From: Rhodocyclaceae bacterium
Lineage (GTDB): Bacteria > Pseudomonadota > Gammaproteobacteria > Burkholderiales > CAIKXV01
Assembly: GCA_020248265.1 (NCBI GenBank)
Contig: JADCHX010000004.1
Span: 663,473 to 727,472 of the forward strand
Direction of reading: 5' to 3'
DNA length: 64,000 nt
A model generated the notes under the pieces. It was not told the DNA's origin, did no database searches, and saw only the letters and a list, made by a program, of their open reading frames with translations. Positions 46,683-61,419 of the stretch are shown in pieces. Every line of letters begins with the position of its first letter. Position 1 is the stretch's first letter. Position numbers and translations under genes: made by a program.

Positions 46683-47948
46683 TCAGCCGCGGCGGACAAT
46701 CCCGTCGAGCGAGGCATCCCAGGCAGCGCCGGGGAACAGATCGGCGAGCCTGTTCTCCGGCAGCCGGAAGATGCGCGCGAGCGGTTGTGCAATCACTGCC
46801 CGGAAGTCGTGCAGGACGGGCAGGTCCCGACCCTCGTTCAGGCTCCCCGGTGCCAGCCCTTCCCACTGGCCGTGCACCCGCCCGCCGGCCACCTCGCGCC
46901 CGATCATCCACAGCGCATTGCCGCGGCCATGGTCGGTTCCGCGCGAGCCGTTCTCGGCGCTGGTGCGGCCGAACTCGCTGAACACCAGCACCAGGTCGCC
47001 CGGACGGTCGAAGTTGTTCCGCAGCTGGACCAGCGCAGTCGCGAGATTGGCAAGACGCGTCGCCAGCAGTCCGGTGGCGGCGCCCTGGTTCACATGGGTG
47101 TCCCAGCCACCGGCGGACAGGAAGCCGATGCGCAGTGCGGCATCGGCGCGCATCAGCGCAGCCAGCTGCTGCGCGTCACGGGCAAGGCCTGCCGGGCTGG
47201 CCGCCCCGTTGTCGGCGGCAGCCATCTCGGTCGCGAGTTCCTTCGACGTCATCAGGCGGCTCTCGACGCCCTGGCGGAACGCGCGCGATAGCCGGTCGTC
47301 GCCGGAGTACAGGTCGAGCAGCGCGTCGCGCGTACCGTCGTTGCCGATCACGCCGGCGCGCGCCGCGGCCTGTCCGCGCGGGATCAGGCGTGCCCGCATC
47401 GGTCCGGACAGGATATGCGGGTTGGCTTCACCAACGCCGATCAGCCGCGGTGCCCCCGAGCGCGCCGGATCGATCGCCGCCAGCCGGTTGAGCCAGCCGG
47501 GCGAGCCGCTCGACTGGCCAGGCAGGCCGGTCTCCCAGTGGTACTGGGCTTCGAAATGCGAACGTGTCCGGTTCGGCGATCCGGCGGCCGGGATTACCGC
47601 CAGTGATCCGTCGTTCCACATCGGCAGCAGTGGCGCCAGCGCAGGGTGCAGCGCGAAGCGCCGGTCCAGCTCGATCGCGGTCGACGCGGTGCCGTCGGGC
47701 GCCGCGACTGCGATGGTCGGACGCAGTTTCGCGTAATCCGGGTCGGACCATGGCACCAGTGCGGACAACCCGTCGTATGCGCCGCGCAGGAACACGACGA
47801 CCAGCCGGCCACGCTCCAGCGCCGGTGCCGTCTGCGCGAATGCCCGGGGTGCGGCGGCGAGACCTGCGCCGGCGAGCAGCCCGCCGAGCAGCCGTCGGCG
47901 ATCAGGTGCGTGACCGTCGGCAACCAGCGTGTCGTCGGTCGCGTTCAT
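46683..47948 (-). CDS. DUF1501 exported protein (Tat substrate)
   Basis: 421 residues. A twin-arginine signal (RRRLLGGLLAGAGLAAAPRAFA) is followed by a sulfatase/alkaline-phosphatase-like domain: LVVVFLRGAYDGLSALVP, WDTHVNQ, LVLVFSEFGRTSAENGSRGTDHG. The SEFGR and GTDHG motifs are typical of DUF1501. No reaction is established. It overlaps the DUF1800 gene (ATGA), with which it usually occurs. Confidence 0.88.
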   Translation of the reverse strand: MNATDDTLVADGHAPDRRRLLGGLLAGAGLAAAPRAFAQTAPALERGRLVVVFLRGAYDGLSALVPWSDPDYAKLRPTIAVAAPDGTASTAIELDRRFALHPALAPLLPMWNDGSLAVIPAAGSPNRTRSHFEAQYHWETGLPGQSSGSPGWLNRLAAIDPARSGAPRLIGVGEANPHILSGPMRARLIPRGQAAARAGVIGNDGTRDALLDLYSGDDRLSRAFRQGVESRLMTSKELATEMAAADNGAASPAGLARDAQQLAALMRADAALRIGFLSAGGWDTHVNQGAATGLLATRLANLATALVQLRNNFDRPGDLVLVFSEFGRTSAENGSRGTDHGRGNALWMIGREVAGGRVHGQWEGLAPGSLNEGRDLPVLHDFRAVIAQPLARIFRLPENRLADLFPGAAWDASLDGIVRRG

Positions 47949-49561
47949 TTGCGCATGAAATCGGGTGCGGCCAGCGCCAGCGCGGCCCGCGACGCGGCCG
48001 GTACCTTCCGGATGCGCTCGCGCGTGCGTTCGTCGTAGAAGCCGAGCAACTGCTCCGGTTCGCCCATACCGCGTGCCAGGGCGGCGGCAAGATCGGCGCG
48101 GCGCGTGAGCGACTCCGGTGACAGCCAGGTCGCGGCGTCGGTGCCGTAGCCGTCCGGCGTCTGCCATCCATTCACTGGCTGGCCGGCGGCTGCGAGGAAG
48201 CCGAGCGCGAGCCCGATGGCGGGCGCGGCTGCGGCATTGCCGGCTGCGGCGGTCCGGGCAGATGCGCCCAGTGCGGAGCAGGCAAAATCGTAAGGCGTCT
48301 TGAACAGTTCGTTCGCGGGGTCCCAGAACTCGGGCGATGCCACCAGCTGGCGCATCACCCCCCGCAGGTCACCGTTGCCCGCCAGGTAGGCCGCGGCCAG
48401 CCGGTCGACCAGCGCGCGCGGCGGCTCGTCTGCCACGAAGAACCGGGCCAGGCGCAGCGCGATCCTGCGCGCGGTGGCCGGGCGCGATGCGAGCAGTGCG
48501 ATCGCCTCGACGCCTTCGCGCTCGCCCTGGGCGGAACCCGGGCCGCCGAAGCGCCGGCCGAGCACCGTCTTCTCGCCGCCGTCGTGCAGGCGGGGTGCGA
48601 AGCGGAAACCGGAGGGCGCGCCCGGATCGACGGTCCAGCCGGTGAGCACGCGCGCCAGTTCGCGTACGTCCTGCTGGGTGTAGCCACCATCGACCCCGAG
48701 TGTGTGCAGCTCCAACAGTTCGCGCGCGTAGTTCTCGTTCAACCCGCGCACGGTGCCACGCGGCCCTGGCGTACCGTCGGCCACGTTCTGGTTCTGGTCG
48801 AGGTAGAACAGCATCGCGGGATGGCGCGCGCTCGCCAGCAGCAGATCCTCGAAGCGGCCGAGCACGTTCGGACGTATCGCGTGGACCGCGTAATGGCCGG
48901 TGAACGGACGCACGGTAGCCCGTCCGACGAACACGTTCAGGTGGTTGAACCAGAACTCGGTCAATCGCGACAGCAGGGGATTCTCGACCGCCGGATCGGA
49001 GCAGCTCAGTATCCGCCACGCGGCAGCCTGTTGTGCGCTGGTGCGCACGAACGACGGCGGCTGTGCAGCCGGTTCCCGTGACGCAGCCGGTGTCTGTGGC
49101 GCAGGCGGTGCCGCAGCAAACGGCCTGCCCGCTTCGGCGGCGCCTGCGGCCGCTGCATTGTTCGCGCGCTGCCGCGCCTCGCGCTCGCGCCGTACCTCTG
49201 CGAACACGTCGGGCAAGGGCGCGGTCACCTGCGACAGCTGCTCGGGTATGCGGGCCGGTTGCAGGCTCGCCTCGAACGCGCGGTCGACTTCGTCCAGCGC
49301 CCAGCCGCGCGGGCCGCCGGGATGCGCCCGCATGACCGCGACCTGCTGCTCCGACGGCCAGTAGCCCAGGCGCGAAGCCGCGCGCCAGATCGCTTGCTGC
49401 TCGGTCAGCGCGGGGGCGGGCGGTGCTGCAGCGCTTGCCAGTCGGGTCGCGTCCGGCAGGCCCGGCAGGCCCAGCAGCATCAGCAGGGCCATACACGACC
49501 GTCCGAAGAAGGATGGCGCGCGCGTGGTTGTTCCGGGCTGGGCGGTTGACGTCAAGGGCAT
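47945..49561 (-). CDS. DUF1800 exported protein
   Basis: 538 residues. Signal peptide (about 23-48), a helical N-terminal region, an Ala/Pro-rich linker (about 135-172), then the DUF1800 core: LTEFWFNHLNVF, LNENYARELLELHTLGVDGGYTQQDVRELARVLTGW and RIALRLARFFVAD. Function unknown. Translationally coupled to the DUF1501 gene downstream and divergent from the TauD-type gene across a 184-base gap. Confidence 0.88.
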   Translation of the reverse strand: MPLTSTAQPGTTTRAPSFFGRSCMALLMLLGLPGLPDATRLASAAAPPAPALTEQQAIWRAASRLGYWPSEQQVAVMRAHPGGPRGWALDEVDRAFEASLQPARIPEQLSQVTAPLPDVFAEVRREREARQRANNAAAAGAAEAGRPFAAAPPAPQTPAASREPAAQPPSFVRTSAQQAAAWRILSCSDPAVENPLLSRLTEFWFNHLNVFVGRATVRPFTGHYAVHAIRPNVLGRFEDLLLASARHPAMLFYLDQNQNVADGTPGPRGTVRGLNENYARELLELHTLGVDGGYTQQDVRELARVLTGWTVDPGAPSGFRFAPRLHDGGEKTVLGRRFGGPGSAQGEREGVEAIALLASRPATARRIALRLARFFVADEPPRALVDRLAAAYLAGNGDLRGVMRQLVASPEFWDPANELFKTPYDFACSALGASARTAAAGNAAAAPAIGLALGFLAAAGQPVNGWQTPDGYGTDAATWLSPESLTRRADLAAALARGMGEPEQLLGFYDERTRERIRKVPAASRAALALAAPDFMRK

Positions 49562-49689
49562 CGGGTGGATCCGGAGTCTCCGGCATCGAACGGTAGGGCA
49601 GTTTACGCACGGATACGCCCGTTTCCGCCGCTGGCGCCCGATCGATTTGTGAGCAGGTGTTTCAGTCGTTACGGATCGCAGCCGGGCGC

Positions 49690-49695
49690 TACAAT
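49690..49695 (+). promoter_or_regulatory. Possible -10 element for the TauD-type gene
   Basis: TACAAT, 50 bases before the dioxygenase ATG, in the gap divergent from DUF1800. No good -35 is found 16-18 bases upstream, so support is weak. Confidence 0.25.
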
Positions 49696-49745
49696 GCTTC
49701 TTCGGCCTGCTGGCCGACTTCTTCAACCGCGCTCGGAGAACCGCG

Positions 49746-50636
49746 ATGGATACCGCCTCGACGCCCGCCGCAGAAGTCCTGCAGTCCTACCCCGGCTTCA
49801 GCATGCGTCCTCTGTCGCCGGCTCTGGGGGCGGAAGTCCGGGGCCTCGACCTGTCGAAGCCGATGCCGCGCGAGGCGTTGCGCGCGGTGCGCCAGCTGCT
49901 CTACGAGAACTGCGTGCTGCTGGTGCCGGGGCAGTCGCTCGAAGAGGAGCAGCAGGTGCGATTCGGCGAATGCTTCGGAACGCTCGCCGCCACCCTCGGA
50001 AGATACGCGTCGCTGCAGAAGAGCCACCCCGCGGTCATGTACGTCACCAACGAAAAGGAAGACGGCAAGTTCGTCGGCGCACTGCCCGACGGCGAGATGT
50101 ACTTCCACTCCGACCGCTGCTACGTCGAACATCCCTGCCTGTGCACCATGCTCTACGGGATCGACATTCCGTCGAAAGGCGGCGACACCTGCTTCGCGAA
50201 CCAGTACAAGGCATACGATGCGTTGCCCGAGGACGTGAAGCGGCGAATCGAGGGCCTGCAGGCGGTGCATGCCTACGAGCCTGGCTACTACTCGCAGAAT
50301 GCGGTCATGCTGACGCGGATCGAGCCGTCGGCCAACGCACTGACCGCCGCCCACCCGATGGTGATCACGCACCCCGCGACCGGCCGCAAGGCGCTTTACG
50401 TGAACCGACTGATGACTGCCTATATCGTCGGCATGGCACGCGCCGAAAGTGCCGAGCTGCTTGAATGGTTGTTCGACCATCAGGAGCAGCCGCAGTTCGT
50501 CTACGCGCACCGGTGGACCCCGGGCGACGTCGTGATCTGGGACAACCGCTGCGTGAACCATGCGCGCACCGATTTCGACGCCGGCGAGGCGCGCAAGCTG
50601 CGCCGTGTCGTGGTCGAGACGGAAGACGCGCTGTAG
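49746..50636 (+). CDS. TauD/TfdA-family Fe(II)/2-oxoglutarate dioxygenase
   Basis: 296 residues. The iron triad is H121-x-D123 (FHSDRC) and H272 (CVNHARTDFD), with a C-terminal Arg (KLRRVVVE) for 2-oxoglutarate. LGAEVRGLDLSKP near the N-terminus and TPGDVVIWDNR before the distal His are family marks. TauD members desulfonate taurine; others act on carboxylic acids or herbicides. Its position beside a SuyAB locus makes a sulfonate substrate possible. It converges on the gntR gene. Confidence 0.87.
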   Translation: MDTASTPAAEVLQSYPGFSMRPLSPALGAEVRGLDLSKPMPREALRAVRQLLYENCVLLVPGQSLEEEQQVRFGECFGTLAATLGRYASLQKSHPAVMYVTNEKEDGKFVGALPDGEMYFHSDRCYVEHPCLCTMLYGIDIPSKGGDTCFANQYKAYDALPEDVKRRIEGLQAVHAYEPGYYSQNAVMLTRIEPSANALTAAHPMVITHPATGRKALYVNRLMTAYIVGMARAESAELLEWLFDHQEQPQFVYAHRWTPGDVVIWDNRCVNHARTDFDAGEARKLRRVVVETEDAL

Positions 50637-50681: not shown

Positions 50682-51554
50682 TCAGCGGTCGTGGTCGGGG
50701 TCGCTCTTCCAGAGGTCGGACAGGTATTCATGCTCGCGCGTGTCGACCCATGACACGCGCGATTCCACCGGACGGTCGGCGTAGGTATAGGCGATCCTGC
50801 GGATGTTCAGCACCGGCTGCCCGGCGCGCAGGTCGAGCACCTTCGCGATCGCGGTCGGGCATGCGACGGCCGACAGCCGCTCGGTGCTGCGCACGACATT
50901 GATGCCGTAGTCGGCCTGGTACAGGCCGTAGATCGTGCCGGGACGTCCTTCGAAGCGTTGCCGGTCGAGGTCGGGGAACAGCGGCGCGGAGATCGATATC
51001 TCGTCGACGATGACCGCCCGCCCGCCGAGCAGCAGCAGGTTGTCGATGCGCAGCACCGGTGCTCCGCTCTCGATGCCGAGTTCCCGGGCGACGGTGGTGC
51101 TCGCGGCGGCCCGGCGGAAGCTGCGCAGGACCGGACGCGGCATCTCGCGCGCCGTGCCGGGCGGGCGACCGGTGCCTTCGGCGCGCGGCACGACATGGAA
51201 GAAATGGAACAGCAGGCGGTCTGCCGTATGCGTGGCCACGAAAGTGCCGCGGCCCTGCTGCCTGACGAGGATCCGGCCCGATACCAGTTCGTCGATCGCC
51301 TTGCGCACTGTCCCGATCGACACGCCGTACTGCTGCGCCAGCCGTGACTCCGACGGCAGCGCCTCGCCCGGCTTCCAGGTGCCCTCGGACAGCGCGCGCG
51401 TCAGCCGTCGCTGCAGTTCGCGGTAGAGCGGGATGCCCGACGCGCCGCCGGCCGGCAGCGCGGATGCGATGGCGGATCCGTCGCCCGGCGTGGCGACCGC
51501 TCGTGCCGGGGGCGCGCGGCGCACCGCGGCGGAAGTCTGGCGTTCGTTGCTCAT
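50682..51554 (-). CDS. GntR-family regulator with UTRA domain (HutC type)
   Basis: 290 residues. The winged helix (about 45-110: LAQQYGVSIGTVRKAIDELVSGRILVRQQGRGTFV) is followed by a UTRA ligand-binding domain (about 130-275, with SGAPVLRIDNLLLL, IYGLYQADYGINV and LRAGQPVLNIRRIAYT). HutC-type regulators are usually repressors released by a pathway metabolite. It is divergent from suyA, with the shared 173-base gap holding a promoter and inverted repeats. Confidence 0.9.
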   Translation of the reverse strand: MSNERQTSAAVRRAPPARAVATPGDGSAIASALPAGGASGIPLYRELQRRLTRALSEGTWKPGEALPSESRLAQQYGVSIGTVRKAIDELVSGRILVRQQGRGTFVATHTADRLLFHFFHVVPRAEGTGRPPGTAREMPRPVLRSFRRAAASTTVARELGIESGAPVLRIDNLLLLGGRAVIVDEISISAPLFPDLDRQRFEGRPGTIYGLYQADYGINVVRSTERLSAVACPTAIAKVLDLRAGQPVLNIRRIAYTYADRPVESRVSWVDTREHEYLSDLWKSDPDHDR

Positions 51555-51564
51555 GGCATTGCGA

Positions 51565-51607
51565 GTCTATTCCAGGCGCATGCCGTTTGGAACGGATTCA
51601 TATAGAT
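51565..51607. promoter_or_regulatory. Candidate GntR operator
   Basis: Two nested inverted repeats: GTCTAT (51565-51570) with ATAGAT (51602-51607), and TTCCA (51570-51574) with TGGAA (51588-51592) around 13 bases. They lie between the gntR start and the suyA promoter. GTCTAT resembles half of the HutC-type GTxTAxAC site. A regulator of this family is next door. Confidence 0.4.
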
Positions 51608-51614
51608 GAGTTGT

Positions 51615-51643
51615 TTGACTCGCTGCCGACGGTTCAATATGAT
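51615..51643 (+). promoter_or_regulatory. Near-consensus sigma-70 promoter for the suyAB operon
   Basis: TTGACT (51615-51620), 17 bases, TATGAT (51638-51643), 84 bases before the suyA ATG. This is the best promoter in the window. It sits eight bases after the ATAGAT half-site, so a repressor bound there would block it. Confidence 0.65.
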
Positions 51644-51727: not shown

Positions 51728-52009
51728 ATGATTCACTTCGTGGTGCACGAAGACGGTGACGGCGTCGGTGTCGTGGTCGTCGAAGGCGTCAAGTCCGGAG
51801 CCGAGCTGACCGGCTGGATCATGGAACAGGACACCGAGATCAAGGTGGTCGCGAAGAGCGACATCCCGATCGGGCACAAGGTTTCGCTGACCGACTACAA
51901 GCCGGGCGACACCGTGATCAAGTACGGCGTGGATATCGGCAAGGTGGTCGCGCCGATCGCGCGTGGCGAGCATGCCCATGTGCACAACATCAAGACCAAG
52001 CGCTGGTAG
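51728..52009 (+). CDS. suyA: SuyA-like small subunit (UxaA N-terminal/SAF domain)
   Basis: 93 residues after a strong AGGAGGA site. A single SAF domain (FVVHEDGDGVGVVVVEG to HVHNIKTKRW), the N-terminal part of altronate-dehydratase-type enzymes as a separate subunit. With the 389-residue partner this matches (2R)-sulfolactate sulfo-lyase SuyAB, which splits sulfolactate to pyruvate and sulfite. Other two-subunit UxaA-family dehydratases have the same layout, so the substrate is inferred from the sulfite-oxidase gene downstream. Confidence 0.72.
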   Translation: MIHFVVHEDGDGVGVVVVEGVKSGAELTGWIMEQDTEIKVVAKSDIPIGHKVSLTDYKPGDTVIKYGVDIGKVVAPIARGEHAHVHNIKTKRW

Positions 52010-52052
52010 CCAAAGCTGGTAGCCGACCCCACCCGATTAGAGGAATTCCGAC

Positions 52053-53222
52053 ATGGATCTGAGCAAGGCCACCTTCTGGGGCTTCAAGCGTGAGAACGGC
52101 CGCATCGGCGTTCGCAACCACGTGATCATCCTTCCGGTCGACGATCTGTCGAACGCCGCGGCCGAAGCGGTCGCTCACAACATCAAGGGCGCGATGGCGC
52201 TGCCGCATCCATACGGACGCCTGCAGTTCGGCGCCGACCTCGACCTTCACTTCCGCACGCTGATCGGCACCGGGTCGAACCCGAACGTCGCGGCCGTGGT
52301 GGTGATCGGCATCGAGGATGGCTGGACCAAGCGCATCGTCGACGGCATCGCCGCCACCGGCAAGCCGGTGACCGGTTTCGGCATCGAAGGCCATGGCGAC
52401 CACGAGACCATCCATCGTGCGTCGAAGGTCGCGCGCGAGTACGTGCAGTGGGCATCTGAAAAGCGACGCGAAGAGCGGCCGCTGAGCGACCTCTGGGTGT
52501 CGACCAAGTGCGGCGAGTCCGATACCACCTCGGGCTGTGGCGCGAACCCGACGGTCGGCAACGCATTCGACAAGCTCTACCCGCACGGCACCACGCTGGT
52601 GTTCGGCGAGACCTCCGAGATCACCGGTGGCGAGATGCTGGTGGCCGAACGCTGCCGCACGCCGGAAGTGCGCGAGAAGTTCATGTTCATGTTCAACCGC
52701 TACCAGGACATGATCAACCGCTGGAAGACCGACGACCTGTCCGAGTCGCAGCCGACCAAGGGCAACATCGCAGGTGGCCTGACCACCATCGAGGAAAAGG
52801 CGTTGGGCAACATCCAGAAGATCGGCCGCAAGTGCCTGGTCGACGGCGTGATCGACAAGGCTGAAGCGCCGACCCATCCGGGCCTGTGGTTCATGGATTC
52901 GTCTTCGGCTGCGGCCGAGATGGTCACGCTGTGCGCCGCCTCGGGCTACACCGTGCATTTCTTCCCGACCGGGCAGGGCAACGTGATCGGCAACCCGATC
53001 CTGCCGGTCATCAAGATCTGCGCGAACCCGAAGACCGTGCGCACGATGGGCGAGCATGTCGACGTCGACGTGTCCGGCCTTCTTCGCAAGGAGATGAACC
53101 CCGACCAGGCTGGCGATGCCTTGCTCGAGTGCATGTTCCGCACCGCGAACGGACGGCTGACCGCCGCCGAGGCGCTGGGTCACCGCGAGTTCGTGCTGAC
53201 CCGGCTGTTCGAGAGCGCCTGA
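52053..53222 (+). CDS. suyB: SuyB-like large subunit (UxaA C-terminal family)
   Basis: 389 residues. [47 protein letters not shown], the Cys-rich [17 protein letters not shown] (iron or iron-sulfur site of the family), [11 protein letters not shown] and [20 protein letters not shown] are present. Length and motif order fit SuyB, the catalytic subunit of sulfolactate sulfo-lyase. It is 43 bases from suyA and one base from the sulfite-oxidase-type gene. An aldarate or altronate dehydratase role remains possible. Confidence 0.72.
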
Positions 53223-53223
53223 T

Positions 53224-54393
53224 TTGGGCGCGGCGGTGCCGCCCGCGGACCCTCTCGCGGGCGGCAGGCCTGGCAGTGGTCCGGCCGGATTGCCGGACGT
53301 TCCCGGCAATCCGTTTGCCGGCGCGGACGCGCGAGCGCATGTCGAGGGCGATTTCGCCCGCGAGGAAGTCGCCCTTGCCAACCGTAATCCCGGCATGCCG
53401 CTCGAGGCGCTGCGCCACGACGTGACGCCGCAGGGTTTGCATTACCTGCTGTCGCACTTCGATATCCCCGACGTCGATGCGCAGGCCTGGCGGCTGGCCC
53501 TGGGCGGGCACGTACAGACCGAGTTCTCCCTTTCCCTCGCTGACCTGAAGCAGATGCCGGCGCGCACGCTGCGGGTGACGCTGGAATGCGCGGGCAATGG
53601 CCGGGCCGGGATGAACCCACGCTATCCGAGCATGCCGTGGATCGGCGAAGCGGTCGGCACCGCCGAGTGGACCGGCACGCCGTTGCGCTACCTGCTCGAG
53701 CAGGCGGGTCCGACCCCGCTGGCGCGCGAGGTGGCCTTCCTCGGGCTCGACCGCGGCTTCGACCGTGGCATCGAACATCATTACGGACGCAGCCTGAAGC
53801 TCGAACAGGCGATGTCCGACGACGTGCTGGTCGTGCATGCGATGAACGGCCTGCCGCTGCTGCCGCAGCATGGCCATCCTTGCCGACTGCTCGTGCCCGG
53901 CTGGTATGGCATGGCCAGCGTCAAGTGGCTGTCGCGCATCGAGGTACTCGACCGCCCGTTCGACGGCTTCCAGCAGGCCGTCGGCTACCACTACCGGAAG
54001 TCGGCCGGCGATCCGGGCGTGCCGGTGACCACCCTGCGCGTGCGTTCGCTGATGGTGCCGCCGGGCATCCCCGACTGGTACACACGGCGCCGGCTGGTCG
54101 AGGCGGGCCCGGTCGAAGTGGGTGGCCGCGCATGGGCGGGTGGCGGCACACCGGTGACCCGTGTGGAGTTCGCGGTCGACGGCCAGTGGCGCGATGCCCG
54201 GCTGGCACCCGCAGGGGAGCACCGCTACGCCTGGCGCGGATGGACGTGCACCTGGGAAGCGACGGCGGGCGAGCACGTGCTGCAATGCAGGGCGCATGCG
54301 GCTGACGGTTCGGTGCAGCCGCTGCAGCCCGACTGGAACACGTCGGGCATGGGCAACAATGCGGCGCAGTCGGTGCAGGTCACGGTACGCTAG
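53224..54393 (+). CDS. Sulfite-oxidase-family molybdopterin enzyme
   Basis: 389 residues from TTG 53224 (GTG 53236 is an alternative). The Mo-cofactor domain contains MPLEALRHDVTPQGLHYLL, the Mo-ligand C122 in LECAGNGRAG, and GYHYR; a C-terminal Mo-co dimerisation domain (about 275-385) follows. No signal peptide and no heme domain are seen, so it appears cytoplasmic and needs an unknown electron acceptor. It begins one base after suyB, which fits oxidation of the sulfite released by SuyAB. Confidence 0.8.
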   Translation: MGAAVPPADPLAGGRPGSGPAGLPDVPGNPFAGADARAHVEGDFAREEVALANRNPGMPLEALRHDVTPQGLHYLLSHFDIPDVDAQAWRLALGGHVQTEFSLSLADLKQMPARTLRVTLECAGNGRAGMNPRYPSMPWIGEAVGTAEWTGTPLRYLLEQAGPTPLAREVAFLGLDRGFDRGIEHHYGRSLKLEQAMSDDVLVVHAMNGLPLLPQHGHPCRLLVPGWYGMASVKWLSRIEVLDRPFDGFQQAVGYHYRKSAGDPGVPVTTLRVRSLMVPPGIPDWYTRRRLVEAGPVEVGGRAWAGGGTPVTRVEFAVDGQWRDARLAPAGEHRYAWRGWTCTWEATAGEHVLQCRAHAADGSVQPLQPDWNTSGMGNNAAQSVQVTVR

Positions 54394-54423
54394 GCCCACT
54401 CACGTAACCCAGGAAGCTCGGCG

Positions 54424-55188
54424 ATGGACCAGGCGACTCCTTCAGCGAACACAGGCAGCACGATCAGGGTCTCGGTATGGCGGAGCAGCGGCGCGGGTGG
54501 CGTCGCCTCCGGCGAGGGCCGGTTCGAGGTGTTCGAAGTGCCGCGCGCGCCGAGCCAGACGGTGCTCGACGTGGTGACGCACATCCAGCGTCACCTCGAC
54601 CCGACGCTGACCTACCGCTTCGCCTGCCGCGTCGGCGTGTGCGGGTCGTGCGCGATGGTGGTCAACGGCGAGGCGCGCTGGACCTGCCGCACCCATGTCG
54701 ACAAGGTTTCGCAGGACGGCACGCTCGAAATCGCGCCGCTGCGCAACCTGCCGGTGATCCGTGACCTGGCCACCGACATGAGCGTGTTCTTCGACAAGTG
54801 GGCGCGCGCCAAGGGCCAGTTCACCGGCAGCCTCACGCGCAAGGACGCGTTCGCGGTCGTGTCGCCGCTGTCGAAGGAGCGGCAGCAGGTCGACATCGGC
54901 ATCGAATGCATCGGCTGCGGCGTGTGCTATTCGTCCTGCGATGTCGTCGAATGGAAGCCCGACTACCTCGGGCCGGCCGCGATGAACCGGGCCTGGACGC
55001 TGGTCAACGACACCCGCGACGAAGCCCGGCGCGAGCGTCTCGCGGCGGTAGCCGGCGATGCCGGATGCCATGCCTGCCACACCCACATGACCTGCACCGA
55101 ACGTTGCCCCAAGCACCTGCCGCTGACCGCCGCGATCGCCGGGCTCAAGCGCGTAACCACACGGGCGCTGCTGAAGGGGGAGCTTTGA
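54424..55188 (+). CDS. SDH/fumarate reductase-like iron-sulfur subunit
   Basis: 254 residues, SdhB/FrdB type. N-terminal [2Fe-2S] ligands in CRVGVCGSCAMVVNG (from about C68) and the fourth in ARWTC; C-terminal [4Fe-4S]/[3Fe-4S] ligands in IECIGCGVCYSSCDVV, then CHACHTHMTCTERCPKHL. It passes electrons from the flavoprotein to the membrane subunits. Its own flavoprotein gene is 3.4 kb downstream, with fumarase genes in between. The stop overlaps the next start. Confidence 0.9.
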   Translation: MDQATPSANTGSTIRVSVWRSSGAGGVASGEGRFEVFEVPRAPSQTVLDVVTHIQRHLDPTLTYRFACRVGVCGSCAMVVNGEARWTCRTHVDKVSQDGTLEIAPLRNLPVIRDLATDMSVFFDKWARAKGQFTGSLTRKDAFAVVSPLSKERQQVDIGIECIGCGVCYSSCDVVEWKPDYLGPAAMNRAWTLVNDTRDEARRERLAAVAGDAGCHACHTHMTCTERCPKHLPLTAAIAGLKRVTTRALLKGEL

Positions 55189-55541
55189 ACGCACGCGCGC
55201 AGGCCTGGTTGTGGTTTCTGCAGCGGGCATCGGCCGCGCTGCTCGGTTTTTTCGTGCTGGTCCACCTCGCGACGATGATCTACGCGGTGCGCAGCGGCCT
55301 GTCCGCCGGCGAGATCCTGTCGCGCACCCGAGGCAACACGCCCTGGATGCTGTTCTATGCTCTGTTCGTGGTCAGCGTCGCGGTCCATGTGCCGATCGGG
55401 CTGCGCAACATCCTGGCCGAGACGTTTTCCTGGCGCGGGCGCGGCCTGGAGGCTGCCATGCTGGCGGTGGGCGTGTTCTTCCTGCTGTTCGGCCTGAGGG
55501 CCGTATGGGCGGTCTACGCGCCTGGGGCGGGCCTGTCATGA
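55185..55541 (+). CDS. SDH/FRD-like membrane anchor subunit C
   Basis: 118 residues from TTG 55185, which overlaps the iron-sulfur subunit stop and has GGGGGAG just upstream. Three membrane helices (about 9-32, 50-75, 88-112). The His in LVHLATMIYAV and that in VAVHVPIGLRNI could bind heme b or quinone. Identity rests on position and helix pattern. Confidence 0.8.
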   Translation: MNARAQAWLWFLQRASAALLGFFVLVHLATMIYAVRSGLSAGEILSRTRGNTPWMLFYALFVVSVAVHVPIGLRNILAETFSWRGRGLEAAMLAVGVFFLLFGLRAVWAVYAPGAGLS

Positions 55542-55888
55542 GCGGCAAGGCCTGGCGCAACCGCAACCATCCCGCCTGGTGGGCGTTCATCGTGCATCGG
55601 GTGTCCGGCCTGCTTCTGGCGGCCTTCATTCCGCTGCATTTCTGGGCGCTCGGACAGGCGCTTTCCGGCGAAGCGGCGCTGGGCGGCTTCATCGAATGGA
55701 CGGCGAATCCGGTGGTGAAGGTCGCCGAGTTCGGACTCGTCCTCGCATTGGCTGCGCACCTCGCCGGTGGCCTGCGCCTGCTGGCACTCGAGTTCCTGCC
55801 TTGGCGCGACTGGCAGAAATCGCTGTTCGCGGTGTCGGTGGCGGTCAGCGTCGGGGCCGGCCTGCTGTTCGCCCTGAACGTGGGCTGA
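55538..55888 (+). CDS. SDH/FRD-like membrane anchor subunit D
   Basis: 116 residues, three membrane helices. The IVHRVSGLLLAAFIPLHFWALG segment (His-Arg-x-Ser-Gly) is the SdhC/D heme- and quinone-site pattern, and AAHLAGGLRLLALE carries another His. Overlaps subunit C by four bases. A 129-base gap to the Bug gene follows, in which I see no clear promoter. Confidence 0.82.
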   Translation: MSGKAWRNRNHPAWWAFIVHRVSGLLLAAFIPLHFWALGQALSGEAALGGFIEWTANPVVKVAEFGLVLALAAHLAGGLRLLALEFLPWRDWQKSLFAVSVAVSVGAGLLFALNVG

Positions 55889-56017
55889 AGGGGGCAAAGG
55901 GCTGAGCGGGTGCCGAGGATATGCCCGAGATCGCGTGATGCTGGCGGTTTGGCCGCACACGCGTCATCATCTCGCGCGCGGAAGACCCCGAAACGGCAAG
56001 TGCCCCAGGAGGACAGG

Positions 56018-57004
56018 ATGAAACGACTGACAATGAAGATTGTCGCAGCGGCGACTGCGACCATGGCGCTGGGCAGTGCAACCGTGGCGCTGGCGCAGGC
56101 ACCGGCTTTTCCCGTGAAGCCGGTACGCATGGTCGTGCCGTTCGTGGCCGGTGGCGCAACCGACGTCGTCGCGCGCCTGCTGTCGCAGGGGCTGAACGAG
56201 CGCTGGGGCCAGAGCGTGCTGGTCGAGAACCGCGCCGGCGCCGGTGGCACGATCGCCAGCGAGATCGTCGCCCGTTCGAACCCGGATGGCTATACCCAGC
56301 TGTTCGCATCTGGCAGCGTGCTGTCGGCCAACCAGCACATGTACCGCAAGATGAGCCATGACCCGGGCCGTGACCTGATCGGCGTGTCGCTGGTGGCGAG
56401 CGGTCCGATGGTGATCGCGGTCGGGCCGAACTCGAAGTTCAACACACTGATGGACCTGGTCAACGCTGTACGCGCAGCTCCCGGCAAGCTGAGCTACGGA
56501 TCGGCCGGCATCGGCAGTCAGGTGCACCTCGCGGCGGAGAGCTTCGAGTTCTTCGCGAAGATGGACTCCGTTCACGTTCCCTACAAGGGTGAGGTGGTCG
56601 CGATCACCGACCTGATCGGCGGTCAGATCGACTGGGCGGCACCGAACCTCGGCGCGGCGATAAACTTCCTCCGTGATCGCAAGCTGCGTGCGCTTGCGGT
56701 CACCGGTCCGAAGCGCTCGCCGTCGCTACCCGACGTGCCGACGGTGTCTGAAGCCGGCATCACCGGCTTCGAGAATCTCGGCTGGTTCGGTGTCGCGGTG
56801 GTGGCCGGCACGCCTGCGCCACTGGTCAACCGGATGGCGGGTGACATCGCGAAGGTCACGGCAGGCACGGCCTTCCGCGACCGTGTCATGGGCCTGGGGA
56901 TGGAAGCTGTCGGCAACAGTCCCGAGGAGTTCAACAAGTACATCGGTTCGGAGATCACCCGCTGGGGCCGGATCATCCGCGAGCGGAAGATCACCGCGAA
57001 CTGA
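56018..57004 (+). CDS. Bug-family (TTT) periplasmic binding protein
   Basis: 328 residues. Signal peptide (about 8-26, ending VALAQA), then FPVKPVRMVVPFVAGGATDV, VLVENRAGAGGTIASEIVA, LSYGSAGIGSQVHLAAE and VPYKGEVVAITDLIGG. AGGAGGA lies upstream of ATG 56018. Placed inside a sulfonate/C4-acid operon, it is a good candidate binder of the pathway substrate. No TctAB membrane partner is in the window. Confidence 0.9.
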   Translation: MKRLTMKIVAAATATMALGSATVALAQAPAFPVKPVRMVVPFVAGGATDVVARLLSQGLNERWGQSVLVENRAGAGGTIASEIVARSNPDGYTQLFASGSVLSANQHMYRKMSHDPGRDLIGVSLVASGPMVIAVGPNSKFNTLMDLVNAVRAAPGKLSYGSAGIGSQVHLAAESFEFFAKMDSVHVPYKGEVVAITDLIGGQIDWAAPNLGAAINFLRDRKLRALAVTGPKRSPSLPDVPTVSEAGITGFENLGWFGVAVVAGTPAPLVNRMAGDIAKVTAGTAFRDRVMGLGMEAVGNSPEEFNKYIGSEITRWGRIIRERKITAN

Positions 57005-57067
57005 TTCGCCGGTCACTGACTCTCCGGGTACTGGCTCATCGCGTACCGACGCGCGTACGGGAACTGC

Positions 57068-57943
57068 ATGCAGATCGACCTCAAGCAGGTGGAAGACGCC
57101 GCCAAGGAGCTGTACATCCGGGCGCTCAAGGTGCTTCCGCCGGACATCAAGGAAGGCTTCACCGGTCTGGTGAAGCGCGAGACGAACGCCACCGGGCAGT
57201 CGGTGCTGGCGACGATGATCCGCAACATCACCGTCGCCGAATCCACCGACAACCTGCTGTGTCAGGACACCGGCCTGCCGATCTACAACGTCGAGATCGG
57301 GCGCAACGTGCAACTCGACGGGTTCGCGCTGAAGCAGGCGATCCGCAAGGGCTGCGAACGGGCCACCACCGAGTATCCGCTGCGCTCCTCGGTCGTGCAT
57401 CCGGTGACCCGGAAGAACGAACAGACCTCTTGCGGACCGCTGGTGCCGGTGATCAACATCGACTTCGTCGATGCGAGCGACCGGCTGTCGATCGAGATGA
57501 TCCCGAAGGGCAGCGGTTCCGAGAACAACACCTTCCTGCACATGGCCATCCCGGCCGACGGCATTGACGCGATCAAGACATTCGTGATCGATTGCGTGCT
57601 CAATGCCGGCGGCAAGACCTGTCCGCCGACCATCGTCGGCGTCGGTGTCGGCGGCACCGGCGACCTGTGCGTGCACCTGTCCAAGGTGGCCGCGACGCGT
57701 GCGCTTGGCACCCGTTGCAGCGATGCGGAAGGCGCGAAGCTGGAAGAGCAGTTGACCGCAGCGGTGAACCAGCTGGGCGTCGGCCCACAGGGGCTGGGGG
57801 GCGATGCGACCTCGTTCGCGGTGCATATCGAGCTCGCCGCGACCCACATCACGATGAACCCGGTGGCGGTCAACATGCAGTGCCATTCCGCGCGCCGCGC
57901 GCGCGCGACCTGGACGCCGACCGGGCTGGCGTACGGCTTCTGA
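57068..57943 (+). CDS. Class I fumarate hydratase, alpha subunit
   Basis: 291 residues. The three cysteines that bind the [4Fe-4S] cluster are in LLCQDTGLPIYNV (C65), GGKTCPPTIVG and NMQCHSARR. Also EIGRNVQLDGFALKQAIRKG and PKGSGSENNTFLHM, typical of fumarase/tartrate dehydratase alpha. Forms an enzyme with the next gene and adds water to fumarate or a substituted fumarate. Relatives include L-tartrate dehydratase. Confidence 0.9.
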   Translation: MQIDLKQVEDAAKELYIRALKVLPPDIKEGFTGLVKRETNATGQSVLATMIRNITVAESTDNLLCQDTGLPIYNVEIGRNVQLDGFALKQAIRKGCERATTEYPLRSSVVHPVTRKNEQTSCGPLVPVINIDFVDASDRLSIEMIPKGSGSENNTFLHMAIPADGIDAIKTFVIDCVLNAGGKTCPPTIVGVGVGGTGDLCVHLSKVAATRALGTRCSDAEGAKLEEQLTAAVNQLGVGPQGLGGDATSFAVHIELAATHITMNPVAVNMQCHSARRARATWTPTGLAYGF

Positions 57944-57977
57944 CGCGCGCGCCCGCCGCATCGACCAAGGACACCAG

Positions 57978-58589
57978 ATGGCGCACTACGATTTCCACAT
58001 GCCGGTGACCGAGGCGCAGGTGCGTGCGCTGAGGGTCAACGATACGGTCACCCTGCACGACACGCTCTACGGCATCCGCGACGCGACGCAGATCCACATG
58101 TTCGACCGCGGCCGCAAGACGAAGTTCGACCTGCGCGGCCACGCGGTGGTGCACACCGCGCCGAACGTTCGCTGGGTCGGCGAGACCGCAGCGGCCCCGG
58201 TCGGCTACGAGCCGGTGTGCGTGGGTACCACCACGTCTGACCGGATGGAGCGCTTCAGCCGGCCGCTGATGGAGCAGTACGGCGTGCGTATCATCATCGG
58301 CAAGGGAGGGCTTCGGCAGGGTTCGCTGGATGCCTTCCGTGACCTGGGTGGGGTATATCTCGCTGTGATCGGCGGAGCGGCCGCGCTCGAGACCACCTGG
58401 ATCGAACAGATCGAGGATGTCGACCTGCACGACCTCAACCCCGAGTCACTGTGGAAGTTCCGCATACAGGGTTTCGGACCGCTGCTGGTCAGCATGGACA
58501 GCCACGGGTCGAGCCTCTACACCGAAGTGAACGCGCAGGCGCGCGACCGGCGCGCCGCCGTACTGGCGGCGCTCGGCGTGAAGAGCTGA
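57978..58589 (+). CDS. Class I fumarate hydratase, beta subunit
   Basis: 203 residues. Swivel-type beta subunit with VTLHDTLYGIRDATQIHMF, RGHAVVHTAPNVRW, TTTSDRMERFSRPLMEQYGVRIIIGKGG. Separate alpha and beta genes are typical of the TtdAB/FumAB type. It follows alpha by 34 bases. Confidence 0.9.
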   Translation: MAHYDFHMPVTEAQVRALRVNDTVTLHDTLYGIRDATQIHMFDRGRKTKFDLRGHAVVHTAPNVRWVGETAAAPVGYEPVCVGTTTSDRMERFSRPLMEQYGVRIIIGKGGLRQGSLDAFRDLGGVYLAVIGGAAALETTWIEQIEDVDLHDLNPESLWKFRIQGFGPLLVSMDSHGSSLYTEVNAQARDRRAAVLAALGVKS

Positions 58590-58621
58590 ACAGACGGGCT
58601 GACAAGGCAGGCTGGCAAGAC

Positions 58622-60343
58622 ATGCGACGCATCAAGACCGATATCCTGATCCTGGGCTCCGGCGGAGCCGGGCTGTTCGCGGCGCTGCACGCGCACAAGA
58701 AGAACCCGAAGGCCGACATCACCGTCGCTGTGAAGGGGCTGCTCGGCAAGAGTGGCTGCACCCGCATGGTCCAGGGCGGCTACAACGTCGCGCTGGCGAA
58801 GGAAGACTCCGTCGAGCGGCACTTCATGGATACGATCGAAGGTGGCAAGTGGCTTCCCGATCAGGACCTCGCCTGGCAACTGGTCGAGGTCGCGATCGAG
58901 CGTATCCACGAGCTCGAGAACGAGCTCGGCTGCTTCTTCGACCGCAACCCCGATGGCACCGTGCACCAGAAGGCGTTTGCCGGGCAGACCTTCGATCGTA
59001 CCGTGCACAAGGGCGACCTGACCGGCATCGAGATCATCAACCGGCTGGCCGAGCAGACCTGGGCGCGAGGCATAAAGCGGCTCGAGGAGCACCGGGCGAT
59101 CGAGATCATCCGCAACCGGCGCGGCGACGCGATCGCCGGGGTGCTGATGATCGACATCCGCAGCGGCGAACTGGTATTCGTGCAGGCGCAGGCGGTACTG
59201 CTCGCCACCGGCGGCGGGCCGACGATGTACAAGTACCACACGCCTTCCGGCGACAAGAGCTGCGACGGCATGGCGATGGCGCTGCGCGCCGGTCTGACGC
59301 TGCGCGACATGGAGATGGTGCAGTTCCACCCGACCGGTCTGGTGGCCGGGGCAGGCACCCGTATCACCGGCACCATCATCGAAGAAGGGTTGCGTGGGGT
59401 CGGCGGCTACCTGCTCAACGGGCAGGGCGAACGCTTCATGGGTCAGTACGATCCGCGCAACGAGCGTGCGACGCGCGATATCGTCAGCCGCGGCATGTAC
59501 GACCAGATGCTCAAGGGCAACGTCGGTCCGAACGGCGGGGTGTACATCACGATGCGCCACCTCGACCCGGCGATGGTGAAGAAGGAATTCCCCGGCATGG
59601 TCGAGCGCTGCGCCGACTGCGGCTTCGACCTGGTGTCGGGGCTGGTCGAGGTCGTTCCAACCGCGCACTACATGATGGGTGGCGTGGTGTTCCGCACCGA
59701 CTGCTCGACCGATCTGCCCGGCCTGTTCGCAGCGGGCGAAGACACGGGCGGCGTACATGGCGCGAACCGGCTCGGCGGCAACGGTGTCGCCAACTCCACC
59801 GTGTATGGCGGCATTGCCGGCGACACCATGGGTGCCTGGATAGCCGGCAACGGCGTGTTCCACGAGCCGGACGAAGGCGCGATCGAAGCGGGTGCAGCGC
59901 GCGTTACCCGGCCATTCGGCGCAGGCAGCAAGGGCCCGGCGACCGGCCTGTCCGATATCCGTACCCGGCTGCACGACCTCATGTGGGATGACGTCGGCAT
60001 CTTCCGGGACGCAGCCAGTCTGGCGCGCGCAAGCGGCGTGCTCGAGGAACTCGACGCCCGGCTCGATACGACCGGTGTTGCCGATGGCCAGCGCGCATTC
60101 AACCTCACCTGGCACGACTGGATCAATCTCAAGAACCTCGTGCTGGTCAGCCAGGCGATCCGTGGCGCTGCCGAGCAACGCGAAGATTCGCGTGGTGCAC
60201 ATTTCCGGAACGACCATCCGGACGTGCGCGACCTCGAGAACTCGCGCTACACCACGGTGCGCATCGACGGTGGCCGGTTCGACTACGGCACGCGGCCGGT
60301 GGTGTTCAGTCGGGTGAAGCCAGGACAGTCGTTGGTCGGCTGA
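58622..60343 (+). CDS. SDH/fumarate reductase-like flavoprotein subunit
   Basis: 573 residues. FAD motif DILILGSGGAGLFAALHAH, dicarboxylate-site residues in MVQFHPTGL (His), ERATRDIVSRGMYDQ (Arg), TAHYMMGGVVF (His) and GANRLGGNGVANS (Arg): the full succinate/fumarate set. At residue 46 the sequence is GCTRMVQGGYN, so the His that binds FAD covalently in SdhA/FrdA is Cys. This predicts non-covalent FAD. It lies after the fumarase genes, separate from its Fe-S and membrane partners. L-aspartate oxidase is excluded as the likely role by the complete Fe-S and membrane subunits in the operon. Confidence 0.88.
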   Translation: MRRIKTDILILGSGGAGLFAALHAHKKNPKADITVAVKGLLGKSGCTRMVQGGYNVALAKEDSVERHFMDTIEGGKWLPDQDLAWQLVEVAIERIHELENELGCFFDRNPDGTVHQKAFAGQTFDRTVHKGDLTGIEIINRLAEQTWARGIKRLEEHRAIEIIRNRRGDAIAGVLMIDIRSGELVFVQAQAVLLATGGGPTMYKYHTPSGDKSCDGMAMALRAGLTLRDMEMVQFHPTGLVAGAGTRITGTIIEEGLRGVGGYLLNGQGERFMGQYDPRNERATRDIVSRGMYDQMLKGNVGPNGGVYITMRHLDPAMVKKEFPGMVERCADCGFDLVSGLVEVVPTAHYMMGGVVFRTDCSTDLPGLFAAGEDTGGVHGANRLGGNGVANSTVYGGIAGDTMGAWIAGNGVFHEPDEGAIEAGAARVTRPFGAGSKGPATGLSDIRTRLHDLMWDDVGIFRDAASLARASGVLEELDARLDTTGVADGQRAFNLTWHDWINLKNLVLVSQAIRGAAEQREDSRGAHFRNDHPDVRDLENSRYTTVRIDGGRFDYGTRPVVFSRVKPGQSLVG

Positions 60344-60381
60344 ACGGTCGAACGGCTGAACGGTCGCAAGGGGGGGCTGCC

Positions 60382-61419
60382 ATGGCGCTACCGGTCGCGT
60401 ACAACGCTGTGCATCGCTTCGCCGTCGTGTTACTGGCATCGGCGGGAATGCCCACGGACGATGCCGCCTGCGTCGCCGATCTGCTCGTGTGGGCAGACCT
60501 GCGCGGTGTGCATTCGCATGGGGTGTCGCGGCTGCCGCAGTATGCCGGCTGGCTGGCCAGCGGCGAGATGAATGCAACGCCCTCGATCCGGGTGCTCGTC
60601 GACCTGCCGGCCCTGCAGGTGATCGAGGGCGACCGCTGCGCCGGTGCGCTCGGCATGCGCCATGCAGTCGATGCGGTGATCGACCGTGCACGCAGCGCCG
60701 GTTCATCGGTCGCGCTGCTGCGCGCGACCACGCATACCGGCGCGGTCGGATTCCATACCGAACGCATCGCGCGGGCGGGGATGCTGGGCGTGGCGGCGGC
60801 CGCTTCGGTGCCGCTGATGGCCTACCACGGCGCCGGCCGAGCAGCCCTGGGTACCGCGCCGCTTTCGATCGCCGCTCCACGCGGCGCGGGTCACGCGCCA
60901 GTCGTGTTCGACATGGCCTCTGCGGTCGTGGCGATGGGCAAGCTGCGGCAGGCCAGAGTGAAGGGCGAGCCGATTCCGGCCGACTGGGCGCTCGATGCGA
61001 ACGGCCATCCGACGACCGATCCTGCGCTGGCGAAGGTGCCCCTGCCAGTCGGTGGCGCGAAAGGCTCGGGGCTCGCGCTGATGTTCGAGGTGGTCGCGAG
61101 CCTGCTCACCGCCAACCCGATCCTGGCGCCGGCACTGGCGACAGGTGGCGCGAAGTACCCGCACGTGCAGAATGCCTTCGTGATGGCGCTCGACATCGAC
61201 CGCATCGTCGATCCCACGGTCTATCGAAGCGAGATCGAGGCCCTGGCCGCCGCCATCCACGCGCTGCCGCCGAGTGGCGCTTCAGCGGTGCTGCTGCCAG
61301 GCGAGCGCGGCGAGTCGCGGCGGGCGGAGCAGGCGCGTGCAGGCATCGCGCTGCCTGCCGGGGTGCGCCATGACCTCGCGACCCTTGCAAGCAAGTACCG
61401 CGTCCCCGTGCCCTGGTAG
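60382..61419 (+). CDS. Ldh-family (malate/L-lactate/sulfolactate) NAD(P)-dependent dehydrogenase
   Basis: 345 residues of the Ldh2/YbiC fold. ADLRGVHSHGVSRLPQYAGW carries the catalytic-site His, and GTAPLSIAAP, HAPVVFDMASAVVAMGKL and LPVGGAKGSGLALMFEV are typical. The family includes ComC, (R)-sulfolactate dehydrogenase, and malate, ureidoglycolate and lactate enzymes. With suyAB upstream, a sulfolactate-like hydroxy acid is a reasonable substrate. Last gene of the operon. Confidence 0.85.
   Translation: MALPVAYNAVHRFAVVLLASAGMPTDDAACVADLLVWADLRGVHSHGVSRLPQYAGWLASGEMNATPSIRVLVDLPALQVIEGDRCAGALGMRHAVDAVIDRARSAGSSVALLRATTHTGAVGFHTERIARAGMLGVAAAASVPLMAYHGAGRAALGTAPLSIAAPRGAGHAPVVFDMASAVVAMGKLRQARVKGEPIPADWALDANGHPTTDPALAKVPLPVGGAKGSGLALMFEVVASLLTANPILAPALATGGAKYPHVQNAFVMALDIDRIVDPTVYRSEIEALAAAIHALPPSGASAVLLPGERGESRRAEQARAGIALPAGVRHDLATLASKYRVPVPW

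Follow-up and report, generated by a model that had tools for sequence, protein, structure and literature searches.

An operon joining sulfolactate sulfo-lyase genes to complex II-like and fumarase-like genes, with a proposed role in 3-sulfopropionate catabolism

A 64,000-nucleotide stretch of DNA from a Rhodocyclaceae bacterium (contig JADCHX010000004.1, positions 663,473 to 727,472; the whole stretch is called the window) carries on its + strand, at 51728-61419, an operon that probably serves the catabolism of 3-sulfopropionate (3-SP) through sulfoacrylate and (R)-sulfolactate to pyruvate and sulfite. A sulfonate pathway that proceeds by desaturation, hydration and sulfite elimination is well supported; what each enzyme acts on, and in which direction the two new steps run, we infer. 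An earlier note on this DNA had proposed the same logic for a C4 substrate, with sulfosuccinate passing through sulfofumarate to 3-sulfomalate and SuyAB removing sulfite to leave oxaloacetate. The logic is supported, as are the identity of SuyAB, sulfite release and disposal, and a dedicated complex II and fumarase pair. The C4 substrate is not supported, as SuyB is shared with clusters for sulfolactate and 2,3-dihydroxypropane-1-sulfonate (DHPS).

The operon is confirmed as real. Its eleven genes follow the order suyA, suyB, a gene of molybdenum (Mo) sulfite-oxidase type, frdB, frdC, frdD, a Bug/TctC gene, fum-alpha, fum-beta, frdA and an Ldh_2 gene, with intergenic distances of 43, 1, 30, -4, -4, 129, 63, 34, 32 and 38 bases and with TTG as start codon in frdC and in the sulfite-oxidase gene. 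The single strand and the gaps of at most 129 bases had been read correctly; the count of ten genes had not. Families were assigned to the window proteins with NCBIfam and Pfam models. The gene set goes beyond chance, because most of it is found again within the genus and in members of other families.

In the proposed pathway, FrdABCD would desaturate 3-SP, a C3 sulfonate and succinate isostere, to sulfoacrylate, with quinone as acceptor of the electrons. Sulfoacrylate would be hydrated to (R)-sulfolactate by the class I fumarase-like pair; by our own reasoning, an L-malate-like geometry takes the R label in sulfolactate, since CH2SO3 outranks COOH. A passage in PMC12421959 gives (R)-sulfolactate as the enantiomer that SuyAB cleaves. 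SuyAB would then eliminate sulfite to yield pyruvate, and the sulfite may be oxidized by a cytoplasmic molybdenum enzyme in the window or, in relatives, exported by TauE or PF03601 proteins. Substrate would enter via Bug or Tau-type binding proteins, the Ldh_2 enzyme (together with SlcC in relatives) may connect the two enantiomers of sulfolactate by way of sulfopyruvate, and control of the gene set is predicted to lie with a GntR regulator.

The sulfo-lyase and its substrate

The first two genes form a UxaA-family pair. The large subunit, SuyB (52053..53222; + strand, as throughout the operon), matches PF20629 and PF04295 and is 82% identical to SuyB of the hps cluster of Cupriavidus pinatubonensis HN-2, which holds hpsN, hpsO, an MFS transporter and a dehydrogenase beside suyAB, an arrangement that passages of PMC11382572 give for strain JMP134. 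A tree of 29 proteins (14 SuyB, 13 other UxaA-family members, and GarD and UxaA of Escherichia coli) places it inside the SuyB clade with support 100/99, apart from the two E. coli proteins; long outgroup branches meet in this tree, according to a warning from the tool, and its deeper order is unsure. SuyB orthologues found among 100 relatives, the bacterium's own genome included, share at least 77% identity, followed by one short piece at 43% and then by matches of at most 39%; among plasmid matches, identity falls from 62% to 40%. The small subunit, SuyA (51728..52009; 93 amino acids), gives one weak match, to the N-terminus of the galactarate dehydratase model TIGR03248, and none to Pfam or to the SAF model. 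A small SuyA adjoins a large SuyB in the window and in relatives alike. These comparisons support the pair as SuyAB, with predicted sulfite release from sulfolactate. The SuyAB-like sulfo-lyase of the earlier note is thereby borne out, and the alternative it had named, aldarate dehydratases, was rejected on the placement in the SuyB clade: the pair does not group with the E. coli aldarate dehydratases.

A second tree addresses the substrate. It holds 79 SuyB rows, 58 with frd and fum genes nearby (the frd-fum module) and 21 without. If the module made 3-sulfomalate, a changed SuyB would be expected; the labels are interspersed instead. The frd-fum label changes nine times along the tree, or eight after two incomplete loci are mended, and the starred branches force five changes. 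The C. pinatubonensis row groups with three frd-fum rows (loci L032, L107 and L123). SlcC or hpsN lies near 18 of the 21 rows without the module, the others being L030 (cut), L048 and L162. Two loci (L116, L125) carry hpsN, hpsO, suyAB, SlcC, ComC and frd-fum within one stretch, and L205 combines hpsN, hpsO, a zinc dehydrogenase, frd-fum, TauE, a Tau-like binding protein and suyAB. The shared metabolite is most simply sulfolactate, because SuyB is common to sulfolactate and DHPS clusters.

The sulfosuccinate route matches the gene set and the chemistry equally well. The UxaA/GarD family handles larger hydroxy acids too, some clusters have Bug, DctM or dicarboxylate-type transporters, and SuyB rows with frd-fum cluster in the tree. 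However, the SuyB proteins of frd-fum loci do not form one separate clade and their kin stand with sulfolactate and DHPS genes, and the change at the substrate-binding Thr of FrdA would fit a replaced carboxylate better than an additional sulfonate. The 3-SP route explains more than the sulfosuccinate route, which is unlikely to be the correct one.

The complex II-like and fumarase-like enzymes

By NCBIfam and Pfam models, the operon encodes the four subunits of a complex II-like enzyme: a FrdA/SdhA-like flavoprotein (58622..60343; PF00890, PF02910), a predicted 3-SP dehydrogenase; a FrdB/SdhB-like iron-sulfur subunit (54424..55188; TIGR00384 at 193 bits, above the cut-off of 88); and two membrane anchor subunits, C (55185..55541) and D (55538..55888), both PF01127. 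The class I fumarase-like alpha subunit (57068..57943; PF05681; 301.9 bits on NF004885 against a cut-off of 276), a predicted sulfoacrylate hydratase with orthologues in other genomes, is followed by a beta subunit (57978..58589) that scores 139.5 on TIGR00723, slightly below the cut-off of 145.15, and matches PDB 7xky_B. In 10 of 80 frd-fum loci from other genomes, a chalcone isomerase-like gene lies between fum alpha and fum beta (L023:13453-14070, L031:7874-8464, L035:5740-6399; PF16036 is shown for the latter two); the window has no such gene.

The operon copies of frd and fum are paralogues, because an SdhA homologue, 36% identical to the operon FrdA, and a FumC above its cut-off sit elsewhere in the genome; the class I fumarase alpha subunit itself has no other match there. 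The dedicated succinate dehydrogenase/fumarate reductase (SDH/FRD)-like complex and the class I fumarase of the earlier note both hold up on this evidence, the latter as a dedicated pair with alpha and beta families present.

An alignment of 78 FrdA rows of at least 60% identity (window included, some genomes twice) and a 51%-identical protein from Rhodococcus jostii RHA1 was compared with E. coli FrdA, E. coli SdhA and the genome's own SdhA. His232, His355 and Arg390 (E. coli FrdA numbering) are conserved in all 78 rows, as is Arg287 in the rows displayed, within an RD motif. We take His355 and Arg390 to be catalytic positions in E. coli FrdA. After the HPTG motif, all 78 rows have an insert with Thr-Arg-x-Thr; in Rhodococcus it reads Ala-Arg-Met-Thr. 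Thr244, Arg287 and His232 are described as important for E. coli FrdA catalysis in a passage of PMC5773532.

The family membership of these genes, SDH/FRD and class I fumarase, would also suit ordinary succinate and fumarate metabolism that merely supports growth on sulfolactate-derived pyruvate. Against this stand the SdhA and FumC homologues elsewhere in the genome, the changed substrate Thr and inserted loop in every one of the 78 FrdA rows, and the tie between frd-fum and SuyB described below. A housekeeping role is unlikely, with very little probability left to it.

Co-occurrence, operator and accessory genes

Within the genus, L022-L027 show the same gene order, suyA through frdA, sulfite oxidase included (L038 and L041 are incomplete). 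In other families, suyAB, frdBCD, fumAB and frdA are kept at most loci, often with GntR and Bug genes, and this sulfite oxidase is absent; L034 has suyAB and no frd-fum, and the loci L030 and L033 are incomplete. A scan with a fumarase-alpha alignment gave at least 542 relatives, of which the best 80 were kept, many of the 80 loci being cut short. These 80 hold suyB in 44 cases, suyA in 40, frdB in 70, frdA in 69, Bug in 57, a ComC-like gene in 41, SlcC in 21, a thiamine-diphosphate (TPP) enzyme in 26, a Tau-like binding protein in 13, a sulfatase in 11, sulfite oxidase in 5, hpsN in 3 and hpsO in 4.

Across whole genomes, the module follows SuyB. Among the 100 relatives, a FumA orthologue (at least 72% identity; a fragment in G002) occurs in 21 and SuyB, partial in some, in 22; all 21 fall within the SuyB set. 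Outside the genus (89 genomes), the ten FumA carriers, from seven families, all have SuyB and one genome has SuyB without FumA (Fisher p = 2e-12, kinship uncorrected). In 398 genomes of the phylum, own genome included, SuyB is found in 15 and a FumA orthologue in two, both with SuyB. A further family is presumably alphaproteobacterial, as its SuyB proteins fall beside those of Paracoccus and Methylobacterium in the tree; 11 of its 298 genomes have a FumA orthologue, and ten of the 11 carry SuyB, the exception being 73% complete. Within the stretches fetched for those 11 loci, suyB lies near frd-fum in four and TauE is present in seven. Of the 36 best-80 loci without suyB, 24 had their genomes searched, and 18 of these carry SuyB elsewhere, three as pieces. 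On the whole, frd-fum is nested within SuyB-bearing genomes, and SuyB also occurs without frd-fum. The loss of SuyAB from genomes that keep frd-fum, which the earlier note had named as evidence against its reading, is mostly not seen, with SuyB kept in 21 of 21, ten of 11 and 18 of 24 genomes.

Two observations concern the reach of the module. Plasmid pRHL1 of R. jostii RHA1 holds a divergent version (L049:12883-37302) with fumAB at 45-52% and frdA at 51% identity, in a stretch of about 25 kb that also includes TauE-like, ComC-like and SlcC-like genes and suyAB. Operons close to the Burkholderiales versions also appear in records under the titles Bordetella parapertussis, Chitinophaga pinensis or planctomycete metagenome-assembled genome (L071, L082, L085, L109, L126); probably these titles are in error or the contigs were binned wrongly.

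The regulator gene, GntR/UTRA-type (50682..51554, - strand; NCBIfam GntR-family matches, all under curated cut-offs), is divergent from suyA in the window and in many loci. A comparison of 42 stretches between suyA and the GntR gene (four genomes twice) often shows words resembling TCATATAGATGA or TCATATAGTTGAC, and the 8-mers present most often are CTATATGA (23 of 42) and GTCAACTA (20 of 42); the stretch in L026/L057 has no such word. The window word, TCATATAGATGA at 51598..51609, is a probable GntR operator and lies directly upstream of a candidate promoter read from the sequence (TTGACT, 17 bases, TATGAT; 51615..51643, + strand). On a weight matrix built from eleven operator words, it scores highest in the 64 kb, at 23.9 bits, with the next site at 14.6; in 60 random 20-kb sequences, the maximum averaged 9.4, with 95% at 16.5.

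The matrix was run on 20 other loci. L032 has sites at 3473, between SlcC-ComC and GntR-frd (20.0), and at 11427, at suyAB (20.6); L107 has sites at 7099, between GntR and frd, and at 20041, at suyAB, each scoring 20.8. In these two loci, the predicted site thus precedes both of the separate units, suyAB and frd-fum. L084, L116 and L125 have sites upstream of the unit that runs from suyAB to frdA, and also between the importer and GntR; every score exceeds 22. In L042 a site of 26.0 at 1733 precedes the importer-frd unit, and words between TauE and suyA reach 13.6. L092 and L110 each have one site upstream of suyA (above 23) and one upstream of the importer at 16.1-16.2, just below the limit. 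One strong site each was found in L108, L123, L120, L097, L034, L043, L151 and L152.

The third gene of the operon encodes a homologue of molybdenum sulfite oxidases and dehydrogenases (53224..54393; PF00174, PF03404). It scores 201.3 bits on the SorA model, against a cut-off of 600, which speaks against SorA identity. A cytoplasmic sulfite oxidase is suggested because no export signal is visible, in a frame that opens merely eight codons further upstream, inside suyB, and because its Cys aligns with that of SorA (the start is unsure in L025-L027). We take this aligned Cys to be the Mo ligand. As a defining part of the system the enzyme was rejected: it is present in 5 of the 80 frd-fum loci, all in the genus, to which the window type is confined at high identity. 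In or near its place stand TauE exporters (L028, L032) or a PF03601 exporter (L029), and the Methylobacterium oryzae cluster (L042) combines a SorA that passes the cut-off, at 685 bits, with TauE and a putative exporter of sulfate. A further cluster of TauE-type proteins is present in 22 of 88 loci, and TauE was matched in 33 loci out of 119, taken both with and without frd-fum (some genomes twice); an exporter is not annotated in every locus, L036 and L037 showing a sulfatase and a TPP enzyme. The earlier note had counted persistence of frd-fum without sulfite oxidase against itself. The window's type of oxidase is indeed limited, at high identity, to the genus, but several relatives have TauE or PF03601 exporters in or near its place, and Methylobacterium has a true SorA. 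Import in the window may depend on the Bug/TctC periplasmic binding protein (56018..57004, ATG at 56018; PF03401), and L028 has a Tau/Ssu-like ABC importer.

Other genes recur around the module. An acetolactate-synthase-like TPP enzyme is encoded in the window at 45012-46655 (+ strand), with a 58%-identical relative in 26 of 80 frd-fum loci, and may be an accessory gene. A sulfatase-family gene lies inside frd-fum operons in 11 of 80 loci (for example L036:12852-14282), perhaps for a sulfated or esterified precursor. These unexplained extras would suit a different sulfonate of the same pattern, a 3-sulfo-carboxylate or derivative that ends in sulfolactate or an analogue. This is quite improbable; 3-SP needs no further assumption, and its route is the sole one of the kind mentioned in the passages of PMC11489063 considered here. 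A TauD/TfdA-family gene beside the GntR gene (49746-50636, + strand) was rejected as a pathway member, being rarely kept in other loci: 91 loci scanned gave two near relatives (L054, L056) and a weak one in L068 (29%), and within the genus it occurs in L022, L023 and L024 of eight loci (L022/L056 and L023/L054 are the same contigs). Two genes on the - strand at 46683-49726 stay adjacent to the operon in several loci of the genus; by their resemblance, we take them to be of DUF1501 and DUF1800 type.

Objections and comparison with known systems

Several observations weigh against the 3-SP pathway as drawn. On the SuyB tree, rows with the frd-fum module cluster: shuffled labels average 18.8 changes, and none of 500 shuffles is as low as 9. 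Near-copies and the gathering of rows add to this clustering, and some SuyB divergence alongside the module is possible. The recurrent neighbours that were annotated include no gene forming 3-SP. Six of the 24 searched genomes have frd-fum and no SuyB at cut-off; Xsc exceeds its cut-off in three of the six, not in the other three, and is no clean substitute for SuyB, because it also occurs in SuyB-bearing genomes (three of ten in the alphaproteobacterial family). No operator word rises above the null in L114 or L133, and those in L204 and L205 are weak (15.1, 15.3). The Ldh_2 dehydrogenase (60382..61419; PF02615), for which a ComC-like role is possible, scores 176.4 bits on the sulfolactate dehydrogenase (ComC) model NF040650, below the cut-off of 500, as does the Methylobacterium Ldh in L042 (163.6). 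Its gene is missing from L026/L057 and L027, of the same genus, though the flanks extend beyond its place, and the window operon has no SlcC.

The weakest point of the model is the missing FAD-linking His. His44 is Cys, and Thr244 is Glu, in all 78 FrdA rows and in the RHA1 protein. Passages in PMC5773532 and PMC9557727 describe complex II without a covalent FAD link as reducing fumarate and not oxidizing succinate. By that rule, the Cys speaks against the forward direction unless it carries the flavin or the couple differs. A Glu at position 244 would stand next to an anion, which is difficult to account for unless this Glu forms a pair with the inserted Arg. The enzyme is classed as complex II-like, not as succinate dehydrogenase, because the FAD-linking His is absent.

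These features raise the prospect of a module run in reverse, in which sulfolactate is dehydrated to sulfoacrylate and FrdABCD reduces it, a fumarate-like respiration of a sulfonate with 3-SP as end product. The loss of the His marks reduce-only enzymes in a passage of PMC9557727, and the best NCBIfam model for the FrdA homologue is the TfrA fumarate reductase (497 bits against a cut-off of 718). However, the module is also found in Methylobacterium and, divergently, in Rhodococcus, both aerobes, and the clusters hold genes for sulfite disposal and sulfonate-type import. Reversal is highly improbable. The chances are about even that a complex II was re-purposed for sulfonate desaturation, giving a sulfo-copy of the succinate-fumarate-malate segment with non-covalent or cysteine-linked flavin, electrons still passing to quinone, and a junction to SuyAB in Burkholderiales, Alphaproteobacteria and Rhodococcus. 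If true, this would extend complex II beyond the succinate/fumarate pair and put to the test the rule that such oxidations need covalent FAD.

Passages of PMC11489063 name two producers of 3-SP, Enterococcus gilvus (from sulfoquinovose or DHPS) and Cupriavidus necator (from homotaurine), and describe growth of Bilophila with 3-SP, which feeds its sulfide formation. The same source describes bacterial degradation of 3-SP as unreported as of 2024 except in a thesis, and a passage in a 2026 review (PMC12890257) terms the Bilophila mechanism unclear. In searches limited to open-licence papers, no publication was recognized as reporting this combination of genes, and one behind a subscription may exist. 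The module offers candidate genes for a 3-SP breakdown route that, within the reach of these searches, had none. Piscinibacter sakaiensis, Massilia agilis, Methylobacterium radiotolerans and R. jostii RHA1 are isolates suited to growth tests, and FrdA with Cys44 and Glu244 can serve as a marker in metagenomes.

The new part is the upstream branch of a SuyAB pathway. The hpsRNOUP-suyAB pathway for DHPS in C. pinatubonensis JMP134 is described in passages of PMC11382572. The hps-suyAB system of this species shares with the operon SuyAB (82% identity to HN-2 SuyB) and a related operator word before suyA. In JMP134, however, sulfolactate arises by HpsNOP oxidation of DHPS, and none of the frd or fum queries matched in the 21 kb examined from HN-2. 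The SlcC/ComC-SuyAB-TauE module of Paracoccus wurundjeri resembles the downstream genes in relatives of the operon, and its upstream part is sulfofucolysis rather than desaturation and hydration, as far as the passages of PMC12421959 describe it.

Roseovarius nubinhibens presumably lacks SuyAB and uses Xsc and CuyA. It degrades 3-SP via sulfoacrylate and sulfolactate, according to a remark in PMC11489063 that cites the thesis of J. Mayer. Within the reach of the searches, this remark is the only place in print where the route appears; the proposed intermediates are the same, and the remark names no genes. The closest parallel in chemistry is the Krebs-cycle pair of succinate dehydrogenase and fumarase, with which the operon shares protein families, most catalytic residues and the order of reactions. 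Unlike those enzymes, the operon encodes a paralogous set whose flavoprotein has Glu in place of Thr244, an inserted loop and no FAD-linking His.

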